Part shown: piece after piece, positions 37,021 through 55,710 of the stretch
Position numbering within the stretch: the first letter of the stretch is position 1
Layout of the letters: every line of letters starts with the position of its first letter
From: Planctomycetaceae bacterium
GTDB lineage: Bacteria; Planctomycetota; Planctomycetia; Pirellulales; Pirellulaceae
Assembly (NCBI GenBank): GCA_002709225.1
Contig: PAQH01000058.1
Span: forward strand, 1-64,000
Direction: 5' to 3'
DNA length: 64,000 nucleotides
The notes under the pieces: generated by a model
Seen by the model: only the letters and a program-made list of their open reading frames with translations
Told to the model about the DNA's origin: nothing
Databases searched by the model: none
Program-made: the position numbers and the translations under genes

Positions 37021-37719
37021 TTAGTTCCCTTTCTTTTTGCCTCGACCACGACCGCCGCCACCGAATCCGCGACGGGGCAACTCAAACTTCTTGCCTTGCA
37101 TGGACGTAAATTGCTTTTTCTGAGGTGCGGTCAGCACTGCCATCGTCTGCTTTTCAGCATCCGCCCGCATCTTTTCCATCTTGGGACGCAGCTTGGCAAA
37201 ATCGGCACGTCCACCAGAAAACATCTTCCGCATTTCCTGGGTCATCGTGTCAGCAATTCCCTTGATCTTCTTGCTTTGAGCCGCAGTCAGCTTGAGCTCC
37301 TTGGCTACGTCAGCATCCCGCAGAGCGGCTGACCCAGCTTGCTGGATGTGAATCTGCCTGAGCCGAGTGTATTGGTCGGGGGCCAACATCTCAGCCAATT
37401 TGGCTTTCACGGCTTTGCCACGCTTGACTTGGATCTCCGCCATCTTCTTCATAAACGTGTCACGCTCCGCGTCCGTCGCCTCTTGAAAATTAATCCTCGG
37501 GTTCGGAAACTGCTTTTGCATCTCTGCTGCAATGACCTCGCCTTCGTCGATTTGGACGTCGAGCAAATCCAGTTCGATTTGCACTTTTTCAATTTGCAGT
37601 AAACCCAACAAGGGATCACCACCAAATCCACCGCGCCGTTGTGCCTGTGCGGCCGGGACGACTACCAATGCCACCACTGCGATTGCCAGGGCGGCAAACT
37701 GCATTCTGCGTACCATCAT
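37021..37719 (-). CDS. Exported LTxxQ-type helical protein
   Basis: 232 residues from ATG 37719, with a perfect AAGGAG five bases upstream; a longer frame exists to 37791. Signal peptide: MQFAALAIAVVALVVVPAAQAQ. The mature part is nearly all helix, rich in Lys, Gln and Met, with LTxxQ-like motifs (KLTAAQSKKIKGIADTM and LTAPQKKQF), as in the CpxP/Spy group of periplasmic stress proteins. The tail is Gly/Arg/Lys-rich (GGGGRGRGKKKG). It is the last gene of the adaptor/permease/EF-hand cluster, 84 bases after the EF-hand gene. Confidence 0.75.
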   Translation of the reverse strand: MMVRRMQFAALAIAVVALVVVPAAQAQRRGGFGGDPLLGLLQIEKVQIELDLLDVQIDEGEVIAAEMQKQFPNPRINFQEATDAERDTFMKKMAEIQVKRGKAVKAKLAEMLAPDQYTRLRQIHIQQAGSAALRDADVAKELKLTAAQSKKIKGIADTMTQEMRKMFSGGRADFAKLRPKMEKMRADAEKQTMAVLTAPQKKQFTSMQGKKFELPRRGFGGGGRGRGKKKGN

Positions 37720-37803
37720 TCTTACTCCTTGGAATAACAACATCGAAAAATCACTGCCCACAGGGGCGATGGCCAAAAGGGTCGCTTTCACCGCAACAAT
37801 TGA

Positions 37804-39051
37804 CTAACGATTACCTCTGCCAAGATTCTTGAACTGCTCAAGCATCGCGTCCGCTTCCGTCTCATCAACCGCATCGTCACCATTACTATCCACATTGCTC
37901 CACCAGAAATCGATCCCCCTTTTTAACTCAGCGGGCAATTCCTCCTTGGATACCTTTTCATTTTTGTCTTTATCAAACAGGGCAACAAAGGCCTTGCCGG
38001 ATTCTGGCAAAGCAAAACCGCCAGCGCCTTTCTTATCACCCGCTTTAGCGTCATCAGCTGGCGTGGAACGATTACCGCCCCCGCCCGTCGAAGACAACTC
38101 ATCCTCTTCAATAAAGCCATCGCCATTCTTGTCGAGTCGATCAAAAAATCGCTTAATGTTTTCCGGCGCTTCATCCTTACTAATTTTGCCGTCGCCGTCG
38201 GCATCATTTTCCTGCAAGCGACTCCAACCCCGGCCACCTGCACGCTGTTCTGCTGCGGCGGGTGCCGGTGCGGGCTCTCCCCGCAAACGAGCCAACAAAG
38301 TGTCGAGCGCCTGGCCACTGGTTTCACTCGCGAACGGGTTCGCATCGTCGTCACCACCGCCACCACCACGGCCACCGCCACCAAATCCGCCAAAACCCCC
38401 ACCGCCACGACCGCCCCCGCCACGACCGCCTCCACCCGACCGACTGCGACGACGAAAGGGCAGGCCGACATTTTCTTGTTTGGCGACCTGTTCCTCGGTG
38501 AGAATCGAAGAGAGGGCCTCGTATTTTTCTTTGGCTTCGTCGTCGGTCATCGTATCCTTATCCGCCACATCAGCCAGCGCATCGAGCAAAGACCGCGTCT
38601 GCTCGTCGGAAAGGCGAATGCCCACATCGCCGGTCAACAACGCCAACTTCCGAACCAACGTGGTCAACTGGCGTTTGCTGTTTTGCCCGCGGCCACCACC
38701 TCCTCCAAACATGGCTCCCATGCCACCCATACCGCCTCCCATGCCGGCAAAGCCGCCACCGCCGCCTGGGCTACTTCCGCGCGAGCCGGGTGCCTGGCCA
38801 TTCTTGAACCCTGGACCACCGTCGGCTGGTCGGCCACCACGGCCACCAACTCCACTATCGGCCGGGCCTCCACCTGGGCCACCCATACTTCCGTTCGGTG
38901 CCGATTCCGCGCCCTCGACAACCGCGTTGGGGTCGGGCGCATTGCCACTGTTGGAGGCCAGCTTGAGTTCATAGCCCGAGGCGAAAAGTCCAACCACTGC
39001 CAGCCCGATCCCAAGCACAATTCCAGTAGCGACTGCGACCAATTGGTTCAT
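37804..39051 (-). CDS. Exported or membrane-anchored Gly-rich EF-hand protein
   Basis: 415 residues; GAGGTG lies four bases before ATG 39051. The N-terminal hydrophobic segment VAVATGIVLGIGLAVVGLFA looks like a membrane anchor or uncleaved signal. Residues 45-125 and 195-240 are low-complexity Gly-rich (GGGRG repeats), flanking a helical part with LSDEQ and LTEEQ motifs (about 125-195). Four EF-hand loops end the protein: DADGDGKISKDE (about 284), DKNGDGFIEEDE (about 308), DKDKNEKVSKEE (about 361, Gly6 lost) and DSNGDDAVDETE (about 389, Gly6 lost). The first two loops are almost identical, in DNA as well, to those in the neighbouring adaptor. Third gene of the cluster. Confidence 0.8.
   Translation of the reverse strand: MNQLVAVATGIVLGIGLAVVGLFASGYELKLASNSGNAPDPNAVVEGAESAPNGSMGGPGGGPADSGVGGRGGRPADGGPGFKNGQAPGSRGSSPGGGGGFAGMGGGMGGMGAMFGGGGGRGQNSKRQLTTLVRKLALLTGDVGIRLSDEQTRSLLDALADVADKDTMTDDEAKEKYEALSSILTEEQVAKQENVGLPFRRRSRSGGGGRGGGGRGGGGFGGFGGGGRGGGGGDDDANPFASETSGQALDTLLARLRGEPAPAPAAAEQRAGGRGWSRLQENDADGDGKISKDEAPENIKRFFDRLDKNGDGFIEEDELSSTGGGGNRSTPADDAKAGDKKGAGGFALPESGKAFVALFDKDKNEKVSKEELPAELKRGIDFWWSNVDSNGDDAVDETEADAMLEQFKNLGRGNR
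38131..38238 (-). repeat. EF-hand DNA block, copy 1
   Basis: About 108 bp encoding GGRGWSRL, the loop DADGDGKISKDE, APENIKRFFDR and the start of the second loop. It is nearly identical to 40941-41049 in the adaptor gene, with only scattered single-base differences, many of them silent. Confidence 0.85.
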
Positions 39052-39086
39052 AATTCACCTCAGCAAATCTGGTGACAGGATGTGTT

Positions 39087-40418
39087 CTATTCGTGCCTCA
39101 AGGCTTCAATCGGATCCATTTGCGCTGCCCGAAAAGCAGGCAACAAACCAAAGATCACGCCGACAACAACAGCGATAACGAACGACACCCAGACCGACCA
39201 CGGTGCGATAATCGGTACCATGTTGAGGACATTTTCAGGTATCGCGGCGAGAGATTGGTAGGTCGTACGGTTATTTTTCGCATAAGTCAGTGCTGAGGTC
39301 ACAACGGGCCCAACCAGGAACCCGGTAGTGACTCCCATGATTCCACCAATCCCGGTCAGCACGACCGCTTCCGTCATAAACTGCCAAATGATATTCACTT
39401 TCTTGGCGCCGATCGCCCGCCGAATACCAATTTCCCGGGTCCGCTCCGTGACGGTCGCCAGCATGATGTTCATGATCCCGATCCCACCCACAATGAGCGA
39501 AATGCTGGCGATCAGAATCCCGAGTACCTGAAACATCTTCTGCAGCAACTCCGCCTGCTTGAGAAGTTCCTTCGGCACCACGAGCGCTACGTCTTCCTTG
39601 CTCTTATGATCCGGATCCTGCTTGACCAGTACATCGACAATGTCCGCCGTATCATCGATCTGTGCAATGTCAGCCACACTCAATGTGATCTGGTTCAACT
39701 CGACAATCTCGCCCTCTCGACTGCCAGACCGACTAGTCATGGTCTGATCGCCGATACGATGATAGAGCGTTCTGAGCGGAATGTAGACGTCGAAGTTGTA
39801 GTCCTGTGAATCAAGATTACCACCGATCGCAGCCGTGGGATCACGTTGACTGGTCTGACCTACAATGCGGTAGAAATCGGTGTCGATCTGGATCACCCGC
39901 CCCACTGGATTCTCAAAACCGAACAAGGCCACCGCCGAGCGGCCACCCAAAACGCAAACGTTCTTCGGTGGAAACGTACTGTCCTGGTCCGTGATGAAAC
40001 GACCGCGTTCAACGGTGAGCTGATTCAATTCCAAATACTCCGGGGTGCAACCAACCACGCGTACTTCTTGTTCGGTCTGATCATTGCGTACCGTTTTGCG
40101 CATCTCTCGGATTGGCACCGCCTGTTCGACCCAAGGCACACCAGCGGCAATTTTCTTGAAATCAGCTCGCTTCAAGCCGTAACTCAAGAACATACCGCCG
40201 CCCGCCGCTGACGAATTCTGCGAAGGCTTGACCGTACGTACGATCACGTTCTTTGCGCCCAAATCGCGAATCTGGTCCTGCGCTTGCTGACTGACACCGT
40301 TGCCCATTGCTACCAGCCAGATCACCGCGGTAATACCGATCCAAATACCGATAATTGCCAGGCCTGAACGCAACGGCTGCAACAGCAGACTTCGCATGCT
40401 CAATGTAAACGTCTTCAT
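39087..40418 (-). CDS. MacB/FtsX-type ABC transporter permease
   Basis: 443 residues from ATG 40418, with AGGTGG about six bases upstream; the frame is open to 40517. Topology fits MacB-type permeases: one N-terminal helix (LAIIGIWIGITAVIWLVAMG), a large periplasmic domain of about 230 residues, then three helices at the C-terminus. The FtsX signature TERTREIGIRRAIGA follows the second helix, and FGLLPAFRAAQMDPIEALRHE ends the protein. Such permeases couple ATP use to mechanical work on periplasmic substrates and need a separate LolD-type ATPase; none is encoded here. Upstream lies the adaptor, downstream at 35 bases the EF-hand protein. Confidence 0.9.
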   Translation of the reverse strand: MKTFTLSMRSLLLQPLRSGLAIIGIWIGITAVIWLVAMGNGVSQQAQDQIRDLGAKNVIVRTVKPSQNSSAAGGGMFLSYGLKRADFKKIAAGVPWVEQAVPIREMRKTVRNDQTEQEVRVVGCTPEYLELNQLTVERGRFITDQDSTFPPKNVCVLGGRSAVALFGFENPVGRVIQIDTDFYRIVGQTSQRDPTAAIGGNLDSQDYNFDVYIPLRTLYHRIGDQTMTSRSGSREGEIVELNQITLSVADIAQIDDTADIVDVLVKQDPDHKSKEDVALVVPKELLKQAELLQKMFQVLGILIASISLIVGGIGIMNIMLATVTERTREIGIRRAIGAKKVNIIWQFMTEAVVLTGIGGIMGVTTGFLVGPVVTSALTYAKNNRTTYQSLAAIPENVLNMVPIIAPWSVWVSFVIAVVVGVIFGLLPAFRAAQMDPIEALRHE

Positions 40419-40575
40419 GGACACCACCTTCAACAAAAAACAACCGTAACACACACCTCCCGGCGGACGAATCGTCGCGCCGGGAGTGCTGGGAATCAAG
40501 TAGCCGCAAGAAAACATACGTAGCGAACAACCAAACGGGGCCCTCTGCTACTCAGTCGCGACTACACACGTCCGG

Positions 40576-42630
40576 TTATTGACCACCGCCGGGACGGCCA
40601 CCACCGGGTCGGGCGCCGCCACCACCGCCGGGGCGCCGCTTCAACATGGCGTCCGCTTCTCCTTCGTCGATCACGCCATCGTCGCCTGCCATAAACGACC
40701 AGAAACTGTCGATTCTCGACTTCATTTGCTCGGACGTCTCGGGGTGTGCTTTAAATTCTTCTTTGGAAACTTTGCCGTCGGAATCGGTATCATACTTCGC
40801 GATGTAGGCCTTGCCATTGGCGGGCATATCGGGGCGCCCACCGCCGCCAGCACTACCGCCGCCAGCACTCCCGCCGCTACCGCGGCTACCACCGCGTCTG
40901 CCACCAACTTCGGATTCTTCGATAAATCCGTCCTTGTTCTTGTCCATGCGATCAAAAAATCGCTTAATGTTTTCCGGCGCTTCATCCTTGCTAATTTTGC
41001 CGTCACCATCAGCGTCATTTTCCTTCAAGCGACTCCAACCTCGGCCACCACGACGGCTACTGCCGCCGCCATCGCCACCACTGGAACCGCCCCGGCCACT
41101 TGCGCCCCCACGTCCGCCCGCTTTCCCGCTCGCTTTCTTCTTATCCGAAACGCGCGGCGAACCCGACGTGTCACCAAATTTCTCTTCCTCGCTCTCTTCC
41201 TCAACCTGGATGTCTGTATCCGCTTCCACCAGCCCGATCGCACGTGGGTTGCGGATCACTGTATCACCCTCCTCAACACCGTTTTTCACTTCGACAAAGG
41301 TCTCGTCACTCAACCCGACTTCCACAATACGTTTTTCGCTCGTGCCATCAGCACCCTGGATGAAACAGTGATACTTTCCCTTCTCCTCAACAACGGAAGA
41401 AAGCGGAACCTTGATCACATCCTCCAAACTATCGACACGGATTTCGACTTCAGCCGTCATCCCGGGCTTGAGATCTCCTGGAGCCCCATCAATTTTTACG
41501 ATGGTCGCATACTCCTTGATATTCCCCTGGAACCAGGAAGTCGACTCTGGCTGGTTACTGATCCGCTCTACCTGACCCTGCAGCTGATTACCTTGAATCA
41601 GGATCGCAGCGCGCATTCCTACTTTCAGATCTTCCACCTTGGTTTCATGCACTTTGACCTTCACCTGCATGTTGTCCAGATCAGGAAGCCACAGGATGTC
41701 CTGCAACTGCCGCACGTTTGACCCCTCTTCAATCTGCACACCTTGCGAACCAAATCGTCCTTGCTTGTTCGCATAAACGACCATCCCATCGCTCGGCGCC
41801 ACAATGAGGCAATTTTCGAGCTGGTCCTCAAGCCGTTTCAACTTGCTCAGTTCAAGTTCGTAGGCCGCCAACTCAGACTTCAATCCGGTCTCAGCGATCG
41901 CGACCTGGCTCTCCAAGTCAGTTAACGTTTTCTGCTTGGTATACATCTCCATAACTTCTTTCGCGGTCTTGGCAGATGTTAACTCCAAATCAGACCGTCT
42001 AACTGCGAACTGTGAACTCTCCAACTCCAACTGGCTGATGTACCCACGCTGGAACATCCGCTCAGAATACTCCAACGAATTTTGGGAACTGCGCAGATTC
42101 TCTTCTGCAATGACAATATTCGATTCTTGATCCTTGAGATCCTTCTCAAATATCTTCAGATACTCTTCGACATTGATCTGCGCCACTTTGACCTTCGCCT
42201 CAGCGCTGATCTTGGCGGACTCCGCCTTCCCCATGGCAATTTTCTGGGCATTGATGTTGTCGGTGATCGAGGAATCATCCAGCTTCACCAGCTGGTCTCC
42301 CTCTGAGACTATCGCTCCGTCTTCAACGATTTCGAGGATGGATGCGCCACCCTCCACACGACACTTAATCGTGACATTGTTGCCGCTTTCCACGTTACCA
42401 TCTTCGGTCACGGTGACCGTCAACGGGCCTTTAACAGCCTTGAATACTTGATAGCCTTCGCTTACAGCATCACCACCTGTGGCACTACCGCCCGGGGACT
42501 GGCCACAACCGGAAATTCCGACCAGCAAACATCCTGTGGCACACCAAAGAGCCACGATGTGCAGTCGCTTCGCGACACTTACGCGGCGGTTGCTTCGACA
42601 GATACGACTTGGCTGTTTACCTTTGCTCAT
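40576..42630 (-). CDS. Lipoprotein HlyD-type efflux adaptor with C-terminal EF-hand domain
   Basis: 684 residues from ATG 42630, with AGAGGTG six bases upstream (GTG 42639 lies above). N-terminal lipobox: LLVGISGCGQ. The order is that of a MacA/HlyD adaptor: barrel/lipoyl half (VTVTEDGNVESGN, then SILEIVEDGAIVSEGDQLVKL), a long coiled coil (about 120-265), the second lipoyl half (LIVAPSDGMVVYANK), beta-barrel, and membrane-proximal domain (SLEDVIKVPLSSVV). After about residue 480 comes a charged linker and Gly/Ser-rich spacer, then EF-hands DADGDGKISKDE, DKNKDGFIEESE, DTDSDGKVSKEE and a degenerate fourth. The Gly-rich tail ends GGGRPGGGQ. It is the first gene of the cluster; the permease begins 157 bases on. 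Confidence 0.88.
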   Translation of the reverse strand: MSKGKQPSRICRSNRRVSVAKRLHIVALWCATGCLLVGISGCGQSPGGSATGGDAVSEGYQVFKAVKGPLTVTVTEDGNVESGNNVTIKCRVEGGASILEIVEDGAIVSEGDQLVKLDDSSITDNINAQKIAMGKAESAKISAEAKVKVAQINVEEYLKIFEKDLKDQESNIVIAEENLRSSQNSLEYSERMFQRGYISQLELESSQFAVRRSDLELTSAKTAKEVMEMYTKQKTLTDLESQVAIAETGLKSELAAYELELSKLKRLEDQLENCLIVAPSDGMVVYANKQGRFGSQGVQIEEGSNVRQLQDILWLPDLDNMQVKVKVHETKVEDLKVGMRAAILIQGNQLQGQVERISNQPESTSWFQGNIKEYATIVKIDGAPGDLKPGMTAEVEIRVDSLEDVIKVPLSSVVEEKGKYHCFIQGADGTSEKRIVEVGLSDETFVEVKNGVEEGDTVIRNPRAIGLVEADTDIQVEEESEEEKFGDTSGSPRVSDKKKASGKAGGRGGASGRGGSSGGDGGGSSRRGGRGWSRLKENDADGDGKISKDEAPENIKRFFDRMDKNKDGFIEESEVGGRRGGSRGSGGSAGGGSAGGGGRPDMPANGKAYIAKYDTDSDGKVSKEEFKAHPETSEQMKSRIDSFWSFMAGDDGVIDEGEADAMLKRRPGGGGGARPGGGRPGGGQ
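40941..41049 (-). repeat. EF-hand DNA block, copy 2
   Basis: Near-identical partner of 38131-38238, in the same orientation, inside the adaptor gene. The high identity at silent sites points to recent duplication or gene conversion. Confidence 0.85.
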
Positions 42631-43181
42631 CGCCGTCACCTCTTCTCCCTAGCGGTCTATTTACAAAAAAGCCGATTTATTCGTGACCACAACCGCGGAC
42701 ACCGCATCCGCGATTAGCGTGTGTTATTCTAACAATATGTTACTCCTAAGCGAATTGGAAAAACCGGATATTACACAGTAAATATCCCTTCCCGCAGCCA
42801 TATAAAAGGTGTGACCGGCCGAGCTAAGACAGCGTCAAGTGGATACGCAAACTCGCTATCTAGCAGCGGCCGGCCACAAGGAGATCTCTCAACCGTTAGA
42901 AAAATCAAGGCTAATCCGGCTTCCGCTTATCACCTAAACCCCCACGCCACTGTCGCATTCCACATCGCCTATGCGTGTGAGAGCCAGAAACAACTGAAAA
43001 ATGCCCTTCTTGCCCACGGAATTCTGTGGACTTGTCAACGCAAACCGGCGAACCGGTACACAGGCCGTGAACACTATTTTTGCGACGGAGACATAAATCC
43101 TTGGCTCCCGCCCAGTGTCCGACCACCAGGAGCTGTGGACACTCAGCACTTTTTCACGATTTAAGGAATCGGTGAACTGGT
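42631..43181. other. Divergent regulatory region between adaptor cluster and sigma factor
   Basis: 551 bases. It must hold the promoters of the minus-strand export cluster and the plus-strand sigma gene. It contains a CGCGGA/TCCGCG hairpin at 42694-42712 and a 7-bp inverted repeat at 42766-42787 in an AT-rich patch. An open frame at 42811-43164 has no protein-like features. Confidence 0.5.
42766..42787. promoter_or_regulatory. 7-bp perfect inverted repeat, possible operator
   Basis: GGATATT and AATATCC flank ACACAGTA. The site lies about 135 bases before the adaptor start, in the AT-rich part of the divergent region. Operator function is a guess. Confidence 0.35.
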
Positions 43182-43820
43182 ATGTCCGACAATGCAAGTG
43201 ATTCGACGGTGCTGATCAAACGTGCCACGGCGGGGGATGAACAGGCCTTGGCAGCCCTGTTTACAAAACATCGTGATCGATTAAGGCGAATGCTCGATTT
43301 CCGTATGGATCAGCGTCTCAGGGGCCGGATCGACCCCTCTGATGTGCTCCAGGAGGCGATGCTCGTGGCCGCTCAAAACGTACAGCAATATGTGGAGGCA
43401 CCAGCATTTTCGTTTTTTGTCTGGCTTCGACAAATCACCATGCAACGCTTGATCGACGTGCACCGCCGGCATCTGGGAGCACAGAAACGCTCTGCGCGAC
43501 AGGAAGTACGCAGCGTCCGCCAGGCCTGGGGCCAAGGCACCTCCGTTTCGCTGGCGCGGTACCTAGTAGGACAACTTTCAACTCCCAGTCAGGCAGTCAT
43601 ACGTGCCGAATTACTCGACCATGTGCAAAAGGCTCTTGATCGCATGGACAAAATCGATCGTGAAGTCCTGGCATTGCGCCACTTTGAAGAGCTTACGAAC
43701 AACGAAGTCGCGGAAGTACTCGATTTGCAGAAGTCCGCGGCCAGCAATCGATATGTACGTGCATTGACTCGCCTAAGGACAATTCTGTCTGAAGTTCCCG
43801 GTTTTTTTGATGATGAATGA
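43182..43820 (+). CDS. ECF-type RNA polymerase sigma factor (planctomycete kinase-linked group)
   Basis: 212 residues. Sigma region 2 contains DEQALAALFTKHRDRLRRM, IDPSDVLQEAMLVA and FFVWLRQITMQRLIDVHRRH; region 4 contains DREVLALRHFEELTNNEVAEVL and SNRYVRALTRL, the DNA-reading helix-turn-helix. The DPSDVLQEAML form is typical of planctomycete ECF sigma factors. No anti-sigma factor gene follows; instead a Ser/Thr kinase does. ECF groups linked to Ser/Thr kinases are known in planctomycetes, where the kinase is thought to control the sigma factor. Confidence 0.92.
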   Translation: MSDNASDSTVLIKRATAGDEQALAALFTKHRDRLRRMLDFRMDQRLRGRIDPSDVLQEAMLVAAQNVQQYVEAPAFSFFVWLRQITMQRLIDVHRRHLGAQKRSARQEVRSVRQAWGQGTSVSLARYLVGQLSTPSQAVIRAELLDHVQKALDRMDKIDREVLALRHFEELTNNEVAEVLDLQKSAASNRYVRALTRLRTILSEVPGFFDDE

Positions 43821-43912
43821 GTCGGTCACACGTAGAGCGCGGATCCCTTAGTACCCGTTGCAAACACGACACAACTTCAACGCAAGACCATCGACTCGAT
43901 CGCCAAGGAAGT

Positions 43913-46900
43913 ATGGCAATGGCAAACATGGACCTGGATCGCAACCCGATTGACATGGCGGCTGAAGAATTCTGTCAGAGACAACGACGCGGCGAACATC
44001 CTTCAATCGATGAGTACTGCCAGCGTTACCCGGAACACGCGGATCAAATCCGCGTGCTGTTCCCGGCCATCGTGGCCATGGAACAACTGAAGTCGCGATC
44101 GTCTTCCGGTACCGCCAGTCAGCCGGCCGCACTGGTAGAAATGCCCAAGCAATTGGGAGACTATCGCATTGTGCAAGAAATTGGTCGGGGTGGCATGGGT
44201 GTGGTCTACGAGGCAATTCAGGAATCATTGCGACGCCGTGTGGCGGTAAAAGTTTTCTCAAACCTCACACTCAGTGAACCAAGACATCTGCGCCGCTTCG
44301 AACGTGAAGCGCGAACCGCGGCCAATTTGCATCACACCAACATCGTTCCCGTATTTGGTGTCGGGCAGCAGGAAGATCTGCACTACTTCGCGATGCAGTT
44401 GATTGACGGCCGTGGACTGGACGAAGTGCTACGTGAGTTACGACGACTATGCCTTGACTCGGAAACTCGCGATTACCATGCTCTCGCCCCTCCAACCTCG
44501 CAAGTAGATTCAACTTTTTCAGTGACTGCAGCTGCCTTGCATTTAATGAACGGACGTCTCACGTCCGTAGCTGCTACAGAACAGGAAACTGACGCAACGC
44601 GAACTGCGATCCAAACATGCGATCAGGATTTAACCAGCCCAGGCATCACTTCCACCGCAATCCTTGATCCTGGTGATACCAGCAACGTCGCCAGACTCGC
44701 GGCGAGCAAGCATAGTGGATCCGCCAACACCGACAGTACCCACGCATTCGACGGCAGCCCGGTCTATTGGCAAAGCATCGCGAAAATCGGCTTGCAGATT
44801 GCCGACGCTCTGGAGTACGCCCACGAACAGGGCGTATTGCATCGCGACATCAAGCCAGCCAACCTGCTGCTCGATGCTCAAGGCACTGTCTGGATCACCG
44901 ATTTCGGACTGGCCAAAGCGATTGATCAGGATGATCTCAGTCTGAGTGGTGACGTAGTAGGTACGTTACGTTACATGTCGCCAGAGCAATTTAACGGCAA
45001 CCACAACAAAAAAAGCGATGTCTATAGTCTTGGACTTACGCTCTACGAGTTATTGCTATTGCGGCCGGCATTCGATGATCCGGATCGCCATCGATTGATT
45101 CAACAGATCGCCCAGGGCAACCCACCTAAACTCCGACGCCTGAATCCACAGATTCCACGCGACCTGGAAACGATCGTGCTCACGGCGACGGCAGTGGACC
45201 CTCAGCATCGCTACGCTTCTGCCGGCGCGATGGCGCGCGATCTCAACCGCTTTCTCGAAGACCGCCCTATCCTGGCGAGACGGTCAGGGCCCGTAGAGCG
45301 ACTCTGGCGATGGGGACGTCGCAACCCAGCGGTTGCTTCGCTGAGCACCTCCTTATTAGTGGTATTGCTCAGCTCATTGGCGTGGATCAACGTCGAGTGG
45401 CGGCAAGCCGAAATGGAAAAGGAACGCGCGACTGCGGCCAATCGCCGCGCAGAAAGCAACCTGCGCCTGGCTTTGGAGTCGATGGACCGCATGCTTCAGA
45501 AGTTCACACCACAATGGCTCGAACAGCCATCTGCGCCTCAAGTGGAAGGGGAAGAACCTGAAGTCCCGTTTCAAATGACGGTCTCCGAGAACAACGCGGA
45601 GTTCCTACAGCAAATCCTCAAATTTTACGATCAATTCGCTGAAGAAAACGCGGAAAACCCCGACCTGCGTTTTGCCACCGCGAAGGCCAGTAGCCGAATT
45701 GGACAAATCCGTCGCCGCCTCGGACAACCTGAACAAGCCGAAGACGCATATCACCGGGCTTTAGAGTTGTTTGCAGAAATGCCTAACGACTTTGAAGACC
45801 ATGAGACACTCGCCATTGAAACGGCGATCGCACAGCGTGAACTAGGACTTACTCTTCAACTCGACTTACAGCGGCGCAGCCGGACCGAAGACATGCTTAC
45901 CCTGGCCCTCCGCACACTCGACGCATCTAATCCCAAAAAACTCAGTGACAAAGCAAGCCTTGAAGTCGCGCGCACGCTTCACGAATTAGGCACACTTTTC
46001 CTCAGCAGTGGAAAACGTGCGGAAGCACATAGCAACCATGAACGCGAATTAGAGATTCTCACTCGGCTGCGGAAACAGGACCCTGGGAATCCAGAGGCTC
46101 GCTTTCTTCAGGCTCGCTGCAACAGAAACCTCTCGCTGCTTGCTTTCCCGAGTCGCCGCACAGAGTCTGGAGCCACTTCCTCTTCTTCGCAGGACGTCAA
46201 ACGCGCGCGACAGAACATCTCCGAAGCGATTGAACTGCTAGAGCAACTCCGCCGCGACTTCCCGGACTTCCCGGATTATCAATGTGAGCTAAGCGAGACG
46301 CTGGTCGCCTCGGCTCGAATCACAATGGCAATAACGTCACGTGATCCGACGGCCACGGACGCCGGTCGACAGGCGGCAATCCAGTTACATACTGCCATAT
46401 ATCTGGCCGAACAGTTGGTCCGAGTCCACCCGACAATTCCACGCTATCGGCTGGCGTTGCTTGCGGGCCACTATCGGATGGCGGCACGGCTCCGCGATCT
46501 CAAGCAATCCAGCGGGGCGTTGCGCCACCACCGGAAAACGGTTGAACTGTGCGTCGAGCTAGTCGAGCAGTTTCCGGAAATTGCCATCTACCAGCGTTAC
46601 CTGAACCACCTTTATCGTCAGCTAATCCGAGCCGTGGAAACGCGTCACGGAAAGGACGAAACCTGGCGTCAAGTTGTTACGGACGCAGCCCAGCAAATGT
46701 CTAAGTACCTGCAAGCTACCGCCGCGGAGAGCTCCGGGCTGGAACTCGCTCGCAGATACCATCGGCTGGGCGAGCTCTACTACGATCTGGAAAATTTCGC
46801 AAATGCGCGGCCAGCCTTCGAGACGGCAGTACGTTATTGGCAGGGGTTGGATCCCGAACTGCCCATTATCTTTGCGCTAGCACGCACCAAGCATGCCTTG

Positions 46901-47176
46901 GGGAATAGCCTGCGAGAGCTCAATGAGCTTGAACTCTCACAGCGCGAGCTGGAAGAAGCAATTCTCTTACAAAGAACTCTGGGATTCCCGCGCGCGCCGT
47001 CAACAAGCACTCCGAGAACCTTCTGGAAACAAGAGTTACGCCAGCAGTACCGCAGTCTCGCCAACACACTGGACCTGATGGGAAACCGGCAGGAGGCCAA
47101 CCACATGCGCGCCGAGGCAAGTAAATTGCTGACACCTGCGCCAAGCACTGAAGCCCCACCAGAGCCAGCTGCGTAA
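43913..47176 (+). CDS. Ser/Thr protein kinase with transmembrane helix and TPR-like region
   Basis: 1087 residues from ATG 43913 (AAGGA five bases upstream); an ATG at 43817 overlapping the sigma stop by four bases is possible. An N-terminal helical part (EEFCQRQRRGEHPSIDEYC) precedes the kinase. Glycine loop GRGGMGVVYEA near 91, Lys113 in RRVAVKVF, HRDIKPANLL near 310, DFGLAKA near 330, and GTLRYMSPEQF. About 105 residues of Thr/Ser-rich text (near 180-285) are inserted between the hinge and the catalytic loop. One membrane helix (LSTSLLVVLLSSLAW, near 480) is followed by about 590 residues of helical repeats. All catalytic residues are present. It probably regulates the preceding sigma factor. 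Confidence 0.92.
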   Translation: MAMANMDLDRNPIDMAAEEFCQRQRRGEHPSIDEYCQRYPEHADQIRVLFPAIVAMEQLKSRSSSGTASQPAALVEMPKQLGDYRIVQEIGRGGMGVVYEAIQESLRRRVAVKVFSNLTLSEPRHLRRFEREARTAANLHHTNIVPVFGVGQQEDLHYFAMQLIDGRGLDEVLRELRRLCLDSETRDYHALAPPTSQVDSTFSVTAAALHLMNGRLTSVAATEQETDATRTAIQTCDQDLTSPGITSTAILDPGDTSNVARLAASKHSGSANTDSTHAFDGSPVYWQSIAKIGLQIADALEYAHEQGVLHRDIKPANLLLDAQGTVWITDFGLAKAIDQDDLSLSGDVVGTLRYMSPEQFNGNHNKKSDVYSLGLTLYELLLLRPAFDDPDRHRLIQQIAQGNPPKLRRLNPQIPRDLETIVLTATAVDPQHRYASAGAMARDLNRFLEDRPILARRSGPVERLWRWGRRNPAVASLSTSLLVVLLSSLAWINVEWRQAEMEKERATAANRRAESNLRLALESMDRMLQKFTPQWLEQPSAPQVEGEEPEVPFQMTVSENNAEFLQQILKFYDQFAEENAENPDLRFATAKASSRIGQIRRRLGQPEQAEDAYHRALELFAEMPNDFEDHETLAIETAIAQRELGLTLQLDLQRRSRTEDMLTLALRTLDASNPKKLSDKASLEVARTLHELGTLFLSSGKRAEAHSNHERELEILTRLRKQDPGNPEARFLQARCNRNLSLLAFPSRRTESGATSSSSQDVKRARQNISEAIELLEQLRRDFPDFPDYQCELSETLVASARITMAITSRDPTATDAGRQAAIQLHTAIYLAEQLVRVHPTIPRYRLALLAGHYRMAARLRDLKQSSGALRHHRKTVELCVELVEQFPEIAIYQRYLNHLYRQLIRAVETRHGKDETWRQVVTDAAQQMSKYLQATAAESSGLELARRYHRLGELYYDLENFANARPAFETAVRYWQGLDPELPIIFALARTKHALGNSLRELNELELSQRELEEAILLQRTLGFPRAPSTSTPRTFWKQELRQQYRSLANTLDLMGNRQEANHMRAEASKLLTPAPSTEAPPEPAA

Positions 47177-53166: not shown

Positions 53167-55710
53167 GTGGCCGATACTGCCGTCTCCCCGTTACTAGAAC
53201 TACACCAGATCCGGCGCACATTCCCGGGTGTTGTGGCCCTCGAGCGGGTCTCATTCCAATTGCTACCAGGCGAAGTACACGCACTCGTCGGCGAAAATGG
53301 CGCCGGCAAGAGCACCTTAATCAACATTCTCTCAGGTGTGCTCCAGCCCGATGAGGGCCAGATCGAACTGCTGGGCTCGCCCATTGTCCTGGCTAATCCG
53401 GTTGAGGCCCGTCAGCGGGGAATCGTTGCTGTACATCAAGAGGCAGAACTGTTTCCCACCCTCTCTGTCGCCGAGAACATGGCATTGGAATCCGGCCTGC
53501 CAGTCAACAAATTCGGCTTAGTTCAATGGCGTCAGGTAGCCGCCGTCGCCGCGAATGCCATGTCCCAGTTGGGACCCTCCTGGCGTCCCGACACACCTGC
53601 TGCGGAGTTGAGTGTAGCGCACCGGCAAATGGCCCAGGTTGCCGCCGCTATTGAACAACAAGTGCGTGTTTTGATCCTGGACGAACCGACCAGTTCGCTC
53701 AGCCGTCGGGAAGCGGAGTGGCTTTTTTCATGCGTAGAAGCACTGAAAAAAAACGGAACGGGGATCATCTATATTTCACACCGCCAAGACGAAATCTTCG
53801 ATCTGGCCGATCGCATCACCGTCCTGCGCGATGGACAGCACATCTGGACACGCCCGGTCGACCAAGTCGATTCCAACGGTCTCGTGGTAGCGATGGTGGG
53901 GCGTTCGGTTGAAACCGAGAGGGCACGCCCTGATCCGGCTCATCCCCACGTCGCCCCCCCGGAGCTACCTCCCCGCCTGAGAGTCAAAGGACTGCGTAGT
54001 GGACAAGCAAACTCGCAGCCAGTGGACCTACAGGTTGCTCCCGGTGAAATCGTGGGGCTGTATGGACTCATCGGGTCCGGCCGAACGGAATTCGCCCAGA
54101 CCTTATTTGGTCTGACACCAGCTGTCGACGGTACGATCGCCGTCGATGGTATCACGCATACGATTAGAAACCCCCGTGACGCGTTGGCAGCAAAGATTGC
54201 ATATGTTCCCGAAGATCGGTTGCGGGAGGGCATTTGCCGCCATTTAACGGTACGCGCCAATCTTGTCCTCTCCAGTTTGAGCCGCTGGACTCGCCATGGC
54301 TTGGCATCACTGGCACGAGAACGCCAGACATCGTCTGACATGGTGCGGCAGCTGGCGGTCCGCCATCGTACAATCGAACAGCCCATCAGGCAATTGTCGG
54401 GCGGTAATCAGCAGAAGATCGTTGTCGGACGCTCACTGTTAACCAGACCGCAAATACTGGTTCTGGATGAGCCAACCCGTGGCGTCGACGTCGGTGCCAA
54501 GAGCGAAATTCACCAGATGTTGCGTAACCTGGCCGATCAGGGGCAGGCTATCTTGATGATCAGCTCGGAATTGCCTGAAGTAATGGCGCACACCGACCGC
54601 ATCGTGGTTTTCCAGGAAGGCGGGGTTTCCGGAGAATTCGACCCCTCCAGCGCATCCGCATCCGACGTCGCTGAAGCCGCATTTCCATCTGGTTCGGGGC
54701 AACTTCTAACGCAAACGACAAAGACGCCAGCTCGCAACAAACTGCGTTTGCACATGCCAGTCGCACAATGGGGACTGGCGTGCGTGGTGCTCCTGCTGGC
54801 CAGCTGGCTATGGATCTCTACGCCGAATTTTGACCCTTGGATGCAACTCACACACGCAACCGTCTGGATCATCCTTGGCTTGGCGGCAAGCAGTGTCATC
54901 ATCGCAGGTGGCATCGATATTTCGATCGGTTCTTTGTTGGCCTTGTCCGCCGCATCCGCAGCGTTTGTCCTCCGCCTCGACTACCCAGCTGTAGTCACCA
55001 TACCTGCTGCGATTCTAATGGCAGCCAGTGTGGGAATTGCCGGCGGCCTGGCCAATGGCGCCCTGTCGCTGGTCGGGCGCGTACATCCCATTGTCGTCAC
55101 GCTAGGAACGATGACCATCTACCGAGGCCTGGTCATCATGCTACTAGGGGGCCGCCCCGCTACTGACTTGCCTTCGCTGTTTATCTGGTTGGCTGAGCCA
55201 CAATCCGGATTTCACGGGGCCGTCCTCGGCACCGCATTTCTCGCCTGCGCCGTATATATTTGGCTGCAACATACGCGCAGTGGGCGTCATATCTTCGCCC
55301 TGGGTAGTAGTCCTACCGCAGCGCGTCTGGTCGGCATCTCAGGAACAAGGACTTGGCTGCTGGCATTTGCTGTCGGGGGTGGGCTGGCGGGGCTCGCAGG
55401 CGCGTTACAGCTGGCAATCAGCGGACAAATGCAATCGCGGCTAGGAAGTGGATGGGAATTGGGCGCGATCGCCGTGGCAGTCATTGGCGGCGTCTCAATT
55501 CAAGGAGGCCGAGGATCCGTACTGGGAGTGATCCTGGGCGCATTATTGTTACGACTGGTTACCAGCGCCATCGTACGCTGGGGAATTGCCGGCGAGCACG
55601 TGGACTTACTGATTGGCGGCATGATTCTGGCCGCCGTCTTATGCGAACTGGGATGGCAGTACATTCAAACTCGTGTTCGTTTTGGTTGGAGTCAACGGAG
55701 TTCAAAATGA
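53167..55710 (+). CDS. Sugar ABC transporter: double ATPase fused to permease
   Basis: 847 residues from GTG 53167, with AAGGA nine bases upstream; the frame is open to 53077 without a signal. Residues 8-505 form an RbsA-type double ATPase: first Walker A GENGAGKST and Walker B VLILDEPTSSLS; second half with the usual altered P-loop GLIGSGRTE, signature LSGGNQQKIVVGRSLL and LVLDEPTRGVDVG. Residues 525-847 are an RbsC-type permease with about eight to ten helices, including IIAGGIDISIGSLLALSAA and GGVSIQGGRGS. ATPase and permease are normally separate proteins. The second permease overlaps its stop by four bases. Confidence 0.92.
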   Translation: MADTAVSPLLELHQIRRTFPGVVALERVSFQLLPGEVHALVGENGAGKSTLINILSGVLQPDEGQIELLGSPIVLANPVEARQRGIVAVHQEAELFPTLSVAENMALESGLPVNKFGLVQWRQVAAVAANAMSQLGPSWRPDTPAAELSVAHRQMAQVAAAIEQQVRVLILDEPTSSLSRREAEWLFSCVEALKKNGTGIIYISHRQDEIFDLADRITVLRDGQHIWTRPVDQVDSNGLVVAMVGRSVETERARPDPAHPHVAPPELPPRLRVKGLRSGQANSQPVDLQVAPGEIVGLYGLIGSGRTEFAQTLFGLTPAVDGTIAVDGITHTIRNPRDALAAKIAYVPEDRLREGICRHLTVRANLVLSSLSRWTRHGLASLARERQTSSDMVRQLAVRHRTIEQPIRQLSGGNQQKIVVGRSLLTRPQILVLDEPTRGVDVGAKSEIHQMLRNLADQGQAILMISSELPEVMAHTDRIVVFQEGGVSGEFDPSSASASDVAEAAFPSGSGQLLTQTTKTPARNKLRLHMPVAQWGLACVVLLLASWLWISTPNFDPWMQLTHATVWIILGLAASSVIIAGGIDISIGSLLALSAASAAFVLRLDYPAVVTIPAAILMAASVGIAGGLANGALSLVGRVHPIVVTLGTMTIYRGLVIMLLGGRPATDLPSLFIWLAEPQSGFHGAVLGTAFLACAVYIWLQHTRSGRHIFALGSSPTAARLVGISGTRTWLLAFAVGGGLAGLAGALQLAISGQMQSRLGSGWELGAIAVAVIGGVSIQGGRGSVLGVILGALLLRLVTSAIVRWGIAGEHVDLLIGGMILAAVLCELGWQYIQTRVRFGWSQRSSK

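Follow-up and report, generated by a model that had tools for sequence, protein, structure and literature searches.

A planctomycete MacA-type adaptor and MacB-type permease probably powered by an ATPase encoded elsewhere in the genome

How can a MacB-type permease be energised when no ATPase is encoded beside it? The question is raised by a four-gene cluster in a planctomycete genome (G000), found in a window, the stretch of DNA analysed here, of 64,000 nt. An earlier note on this DNA had described four genes on one strand, encoding an EF-hand-tailed adaptor, a MacB-type permease, a separate protein with EF-hands and an LTxxQ protein. Profile searches confirmed each of the four, with the start of the adaptor ORF moved from 42630 to 42639. 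All four ORFs are intact, run in one direction and lie close together (Table 1).

Table 1. Features of the adaptor-permease locus. Coordinates are positions in the 64,000-nt window; the cluster lies on its minus strand.
Feature	Position	Strand	Basis or remark
MacA/HlyD-type periplasmic adaptor	40576..42639	-	ORF, Pfam/NCBIfam, predicted structure
Parts of the adaptor			lipobox ISGC at about residue 45, long TolC-type alpha-hairpin, barrel, MP domain, Gly-rich linker, EF-hand tail
EF-hand tail of the adaptor, residues ~533-668	40636..41043	-	two EF-hand domains
EF-hand module of the adaptor	40916..41049	-	partner copy of the module in the third protein
MacB-type permease without NBD	39087..40418	-	ORF open to 40517; probable start Met34
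Major coupling helix of the permease, TM2-TM3	39375..39455	-	TVTERTREIGIRRAIGAKK...; conserved with and without linked ATPase
Minor coupling helix of the permease, C-terminal	39090..39143	-	MDPIEALRHE
Third protein, exported or membrane-anchored	37804..39051	-	Gly-rich; C-terminal EF-hand region
Planctomycete helical domain of the third protein	38446-38682	-	
EF-hand module of the third protein	38105..38238	-	near-identical DNA to the adaptor copy
Exported LTxxQ (Spy/CpxP-like) protein	37021..37791	-	probable start ~37716

In searches of Pfam and NCBIfam, the adaptor scored 107.7 bits against RND_mfp (TIGR01730; cut-off 94.9) and also matched HlyD_3 and EF-hand models, the latter above cut-off. 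The best fold match of its predicted structure was to MacA chains (Z 19.2-19.6). With the TIGR01730 match and a MacA-like fold comprising alpha-hairpin, lipoyl, barrel and MP domains, it belongs to the MacA/RND_mfp adaptors. The permease matched MacB_PCD (3e-34) and FtsX (3e-20) but no NBD; together with four TM helices and a coupling helix between TM2 and TM3, these matches place it among MacB permease domains. It is not a MacB in the strict sense, which has an N-terminally fused NBD: it is 443-476 aa long, lacks ABC_tran and reaches 152 bits on the MacB equivalog, where the cut-off is 966. Its model (mean pLDDT 89) was closest in fold to the split pneumococcal MacAB-like transporter 5xu1 (Z 26.6), with further matches to LolCDE and MacB. 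The true start is probably the internal Met at 40418, because relatives align from there. The third protein matched EF-hand_1 of Pfam (8e-11), and the fourth LTXXQ (PF07813) at 30.7 bits against a cut-off of 24.3, spanning 34 of 100 positions. The fourth sequence contains the LTxxQ motif twice and begins with a signal-like stretch, but it did not reach the NCBIfam cut-off of the CpxP equivalog.

A search of the window for ABC_tran found no ABC-transporter ATPase at the locus, and here the earlier note, which had reported none beside the permease, was right. The sole matches in the window, at 53.2-54.5 kb (53239-54477, plus strand), fall in an 891-aa open frame with two tandem ABC domains, which is probably of ABC-F type rather than the NBD of a transporter. 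Loss of an ATPase gene in an assembly gap was ruled out, the locus being contiguous and the gene order being identical in G001, a genome of the same genus; a pseudogene remnant between the genes was ruled out by intergenic gaps of only ~12-160 bases. Nor was an outer-membrane efflux gene found near the locus; in G023, a 982-aa outer-membrane-efflux protein is encoded upstream of the adaptor (L042 1752-4700). Upstream of the adaptor in the window and divergent from it, a sigma-factor-like gene is followed by a large Ser/Thr kinase gene (43182-47176, plus strand). In G003, a comparable pair directly follows the ATPase gene (L041 9841-13637), which hints at a link in regulation.

The NBD of MacB pushes on the major coupling helix, which is located between TM2 and TM3, and makes contact with the minor one at the C terminus (PMC5985334). 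Across the permease family, the mean pairwise identity of the major helix was 0.84 in members with a linked ATPase and 0.83 in those without; the corresponding values for the minor helix were 0.83 and 0.82. Identity over the whole permease was far below that of the coupling helices (0.55 with and 0.58 without a linked ATPase). Judged by these identities, both NBD-coupling helices are preserved equally well in permeases with and without a neighbouring ATPase.

The distribution of permease and ATPase genes was then followed with one profile for each family in 148 genomes of the host order. The ATPase profile, built from members linked to a permease, separates the family by a wide gap, with members at 390-450 bits and the next ATPases at no more than 317 bits. 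The permease family has 243 copies in 127 of the genomes, from one to five in each. The ATPase family has 133 copies in 122 genomes, and exactly one in 112 of these. In no genome with a permease do ATPases outnumber permeases, and in genomes assembled as a single contig the ratio of permeases to ATPases was 3:1 (G013 and G060), 2:1 (G107) or 4:2 (G079). With both profiles drawn from the same neighbourhoods, the two families occur together in 120 genomes, the permease alone in 7, the ATPase alone in 2 and neither in 19 (Fisher p 3e-16). The two genomes with an ATPase and no detected permease (G065 and G076) are both fragmented; three with permeases and no detected ATPase (G024, G093 and G111) are 91-95% complete. 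Outside the host order, a class-wide sample of 61 genomes held 77 permeases and 63 ATPases. In a wider scan of contigs, generic MacB-like matches from other phyla diluted the hits to the permease profile, and few named planctomycetes were returned. The genomes thus carry fewer ATPase than permease genes, as would be expected of a shared ATPase.

Sharing also presupposes that the ATPase gene can stand apart from permeases, and such an arrangement was found repeatedly. A tree of 74 permeases splits into two well supported halves. Clade I mostly shows the order adaptor-ATPase-permease; in clade II, which holds the window permease, 35 of 42 members have no linked ATPase and the other seven have one downstream. 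The linkage label changes at least 10 times on starred branches of the tree. The nearest relatives outside the window's genus include those of G026 and G003, both with an ATPase downstream. The G026 locus is syntenic with that of the window, reading adaptor (with EF-hands), permease, third gene, ATPase, a 190-aa gene, LTxxQ and pgi, the last also a neighbour of the window locus. In the window's genus (G000 and G001) the ATPase is gone from the locus. The four-gene order for which the earlier note had proposed a search in relatives was seen in the same genus only, and G026 has an ATPase inside it. Family ATPases stand alone inside contigs, adjacent to neither permease nor adaptor, in G040, G058, G088, G105 and G117, and all retain Walker A, signature, Walker B and H-loop motifs; G046, where the permease is at a contig end, was left out of this set. 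In closed genomes with one permease and one ATPase, the two lie ~2.1 Mb (G151) and ~1.6 Mb (G165) apart; in G199 the distance is ~0.9 Mb and an adaptor adjoins the ATPase. G183 was dropped as a further unlinked pair, as another ATPase adjoins its permease. G049 and G118 each have a single ATPase, placed beside one permease, and their other permease has none. A different arrangement was seen at seven loci (L058, L063, L065, L222, L225, L228 and L236), where three consecutive, different adaptor genes precede one family permease, suggesting mixed adaptor rings.

In the window's own genome, the sole family ATPase detected is on contig C35, in a paralogous, clade I adaptor-ATPase-permease operon. 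Of the FtsX permeases found in this genome, only those on C35 and C58 have the family coupling motif, and the others have an adjoining ATPase, except one of a different type on C153. The latter contig (L259) and C33 (L260) hold a second unpaired set, namely this other-type permease, which has no ATPase, and a LolD-like ATPase that stands as an orphan. Since the genome is 83% complete, a second ATPase of the family may have escaped detection; G001, which is 98% complete, has five permeases and one ATPase. The ATPase is not simply absent, as had been proposed: a matching single-copy family member is encoded at another site, and the permease retains the helices to couple to it.

Wherever they are linked, permeases of the family pair with one ATPase family, present nearly once per genome. 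The adaptor and permease of the locus therefore probably belong to a split envelope exporter of MacAB type (type VII, mechanotransmission) that obtains its ATPase in trans; gene content, linkage and conservation all point to such sharing. In the mechanism we propose, two permeases would bind a dimer of the shared ATPase, and ATP binding would zip the permease stalks together, pushing periplasmic cargo through the adaptor hexamer into an outer-membrane channel encoded elsewhere.

The EF-hand tail may add a layer to this mechanism. In the model, a disordered, Gly-rich linker joins the C terminus of the adaptor to two EF-hand domains predicted with confidence, which contain three canonical loops and one degenerate loop. 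The helix-loop-helix pairs and DxDxDG loops, which score above the Pfam cut-off, identify true EF-hands, and chance motifs were ruled out by these scores and the confident models. From the loop residues, Ca2+ binding is predicted. The earlier note took such a tail to be peculiar for a MacA-type adaptor, yet 32 of the 66 permease loci with a scorable adaptor have one: 14 of 27 in clade I, 15 of 16 in the window's group of clade II and 3 of 23 in the other clade II group. Since the tails occur on about half of the adaptors and do not track the ATPase, being found with and without a linked one, they are a trait of the group. In MacAB-TolC, the MP domain contacts the permease (PMC5985334), and here that domain ends just before the linker, which makes a role of the tail at the adaptor-permease interface plausible. 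Flexibly tethered behind the MP domain, the tail could bind envelope Ca2+ and then stabilise or gate the adaptor-permease contact, or recruit cargo; we give these steps less weight. The part of the literature searched held no description of a planctomycete MacB or HlyD protein with an EF-hand, and within it the EF-hand-tailed MacA adaptor is a common but undescribed architecture.

The family of the third protein is small and planctomycete, present in 12 of the 148 genomes. Its relatives elsewhere lack EF-hands and, G026 apart, do not lie beside an adaptor-permease pair of the exporter family; a dedicated role of the third gene was rejected on these grounds. Over 134 bases, the EF module of the third protein is 87% identical to that of the adaptor in G000 and 90% in G001. 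In mid-module, the two copies within one genome are identical, whereas the orthologues differ at synonymous sites, a pattern indicating that the modules are homogenised by gene conversion in each lineage. Because other members of the family have no EF-hands, the module of the third protein is likely to have originated from the adaptor. Both the EF-hand protein and the LTxxQ protein probably act as co-expressed accessories in the periplasm.

The earlier note had suggested a calcium-tuned envelope complex, to which the four proteins would be dedicated and which would need no ABC ATPase. Two of the four neighbours bear EF-hands that gene conversion keeps alike, and this would agree with such a complex, as would the identical gene order in G001. 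However, the coupling helices are fully retained, G026 has an ATPase within the locus, and EF tails are also borne by ATPase-linked adaptors. With the four-gene order seen in one genus only, and the relatives of the third gene EF-less and usually distant from any such transporter, a four-protein calcium complex is possible, and one that dispenses with an ATPase very unlikely.

Two other accounts concern the motor itself. Another ATPase might energise the permease in trans, a candidate being the orphan LolD-like protein of C33, which has no adjoining FtsX permease. ATPases of this type, at ~280-317 bits on the family profile, adjoin a different, ~34% identical permease class in relatives, whereas the ATPase encoded inside or beside loci of the present permeases, wherever they are linked, is that of the family, and we regard the substitution as unlikely. 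That the ATPase was lost from a decaying system, or from one turned into a static scaffold, would fit its repeated loss from permease loci across the tree. Such an account is highly improbable for a locus whose ORFs are intact and ~94% identical to those of G001, in a family whose coupling helices and C terminus are invariant in tens of ATPase-less members from many families.

An exporter whose ATPase acts in trans would combine features of several known systems. It resembles MacA-MacB-TolC, a type VII ABC transporter working by mechanotransmission (PMC5985334), in adaptor and permease folds, periplasmic MacB_PCD and both coupling helices, but its ATPase is neither fused nor linked, its adaptor is EF-tailed and its locus has no outer-membrane factor. 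As in the split MacAB-like transporter of Streptococcus pneumoniae (5xu1, 5xu0), ATPase and permease are separate polypeptides; there, however, no EF-hand tail has been described, and the planctomycete ATPase is encoded elsewhere. MceG, common to Mce1 and Mce4 of Mycobacterium tuberculosis (PMC9947336), is likewise one ATPase for several multi-subunit envelope transporters, but these are lipid importers with MCE proteins and an unrelated permease fold. The multitask ATPases MsmX and MsmK, orphans that energise several incomplete transporters (PMC7658222), serve type I sugar importers, unlike the present exporter. Similar in gene arrangement is the tripartite efflux system HP1489-HP1486 of Helicobacter pylori, for which the orphan HP0853 was proposed as candidate ATPase (PMC9570263): the exporter locus lacks an ATPase that is linked in a relative, as here, although the lineage is unrelated and the assignment is still a proposal.

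Sharing of ATPases has been documented mainly for importers, and the literature searched, covered in part, held no description of a shared ATPase for planctomycete MacB-like systems. It may be, though we consider it rather doubtful, that throughout Planctomycetia one single-copy ATPase drives a whole set of MacA/MacB-like exporters, with EF tails letting envelope calcium choose which of the competing adaptor-permease pairs engages it. A class-wide single-copy ATPase serving several MacB-like exporters would explain many apparently incomplete planctomycete ABC loci, and one genetic handle would switch off all the exporters that it serves. On the EF-hand-tailed MacA adaptors, control of a tripartite pump by calcium can be tested directly.
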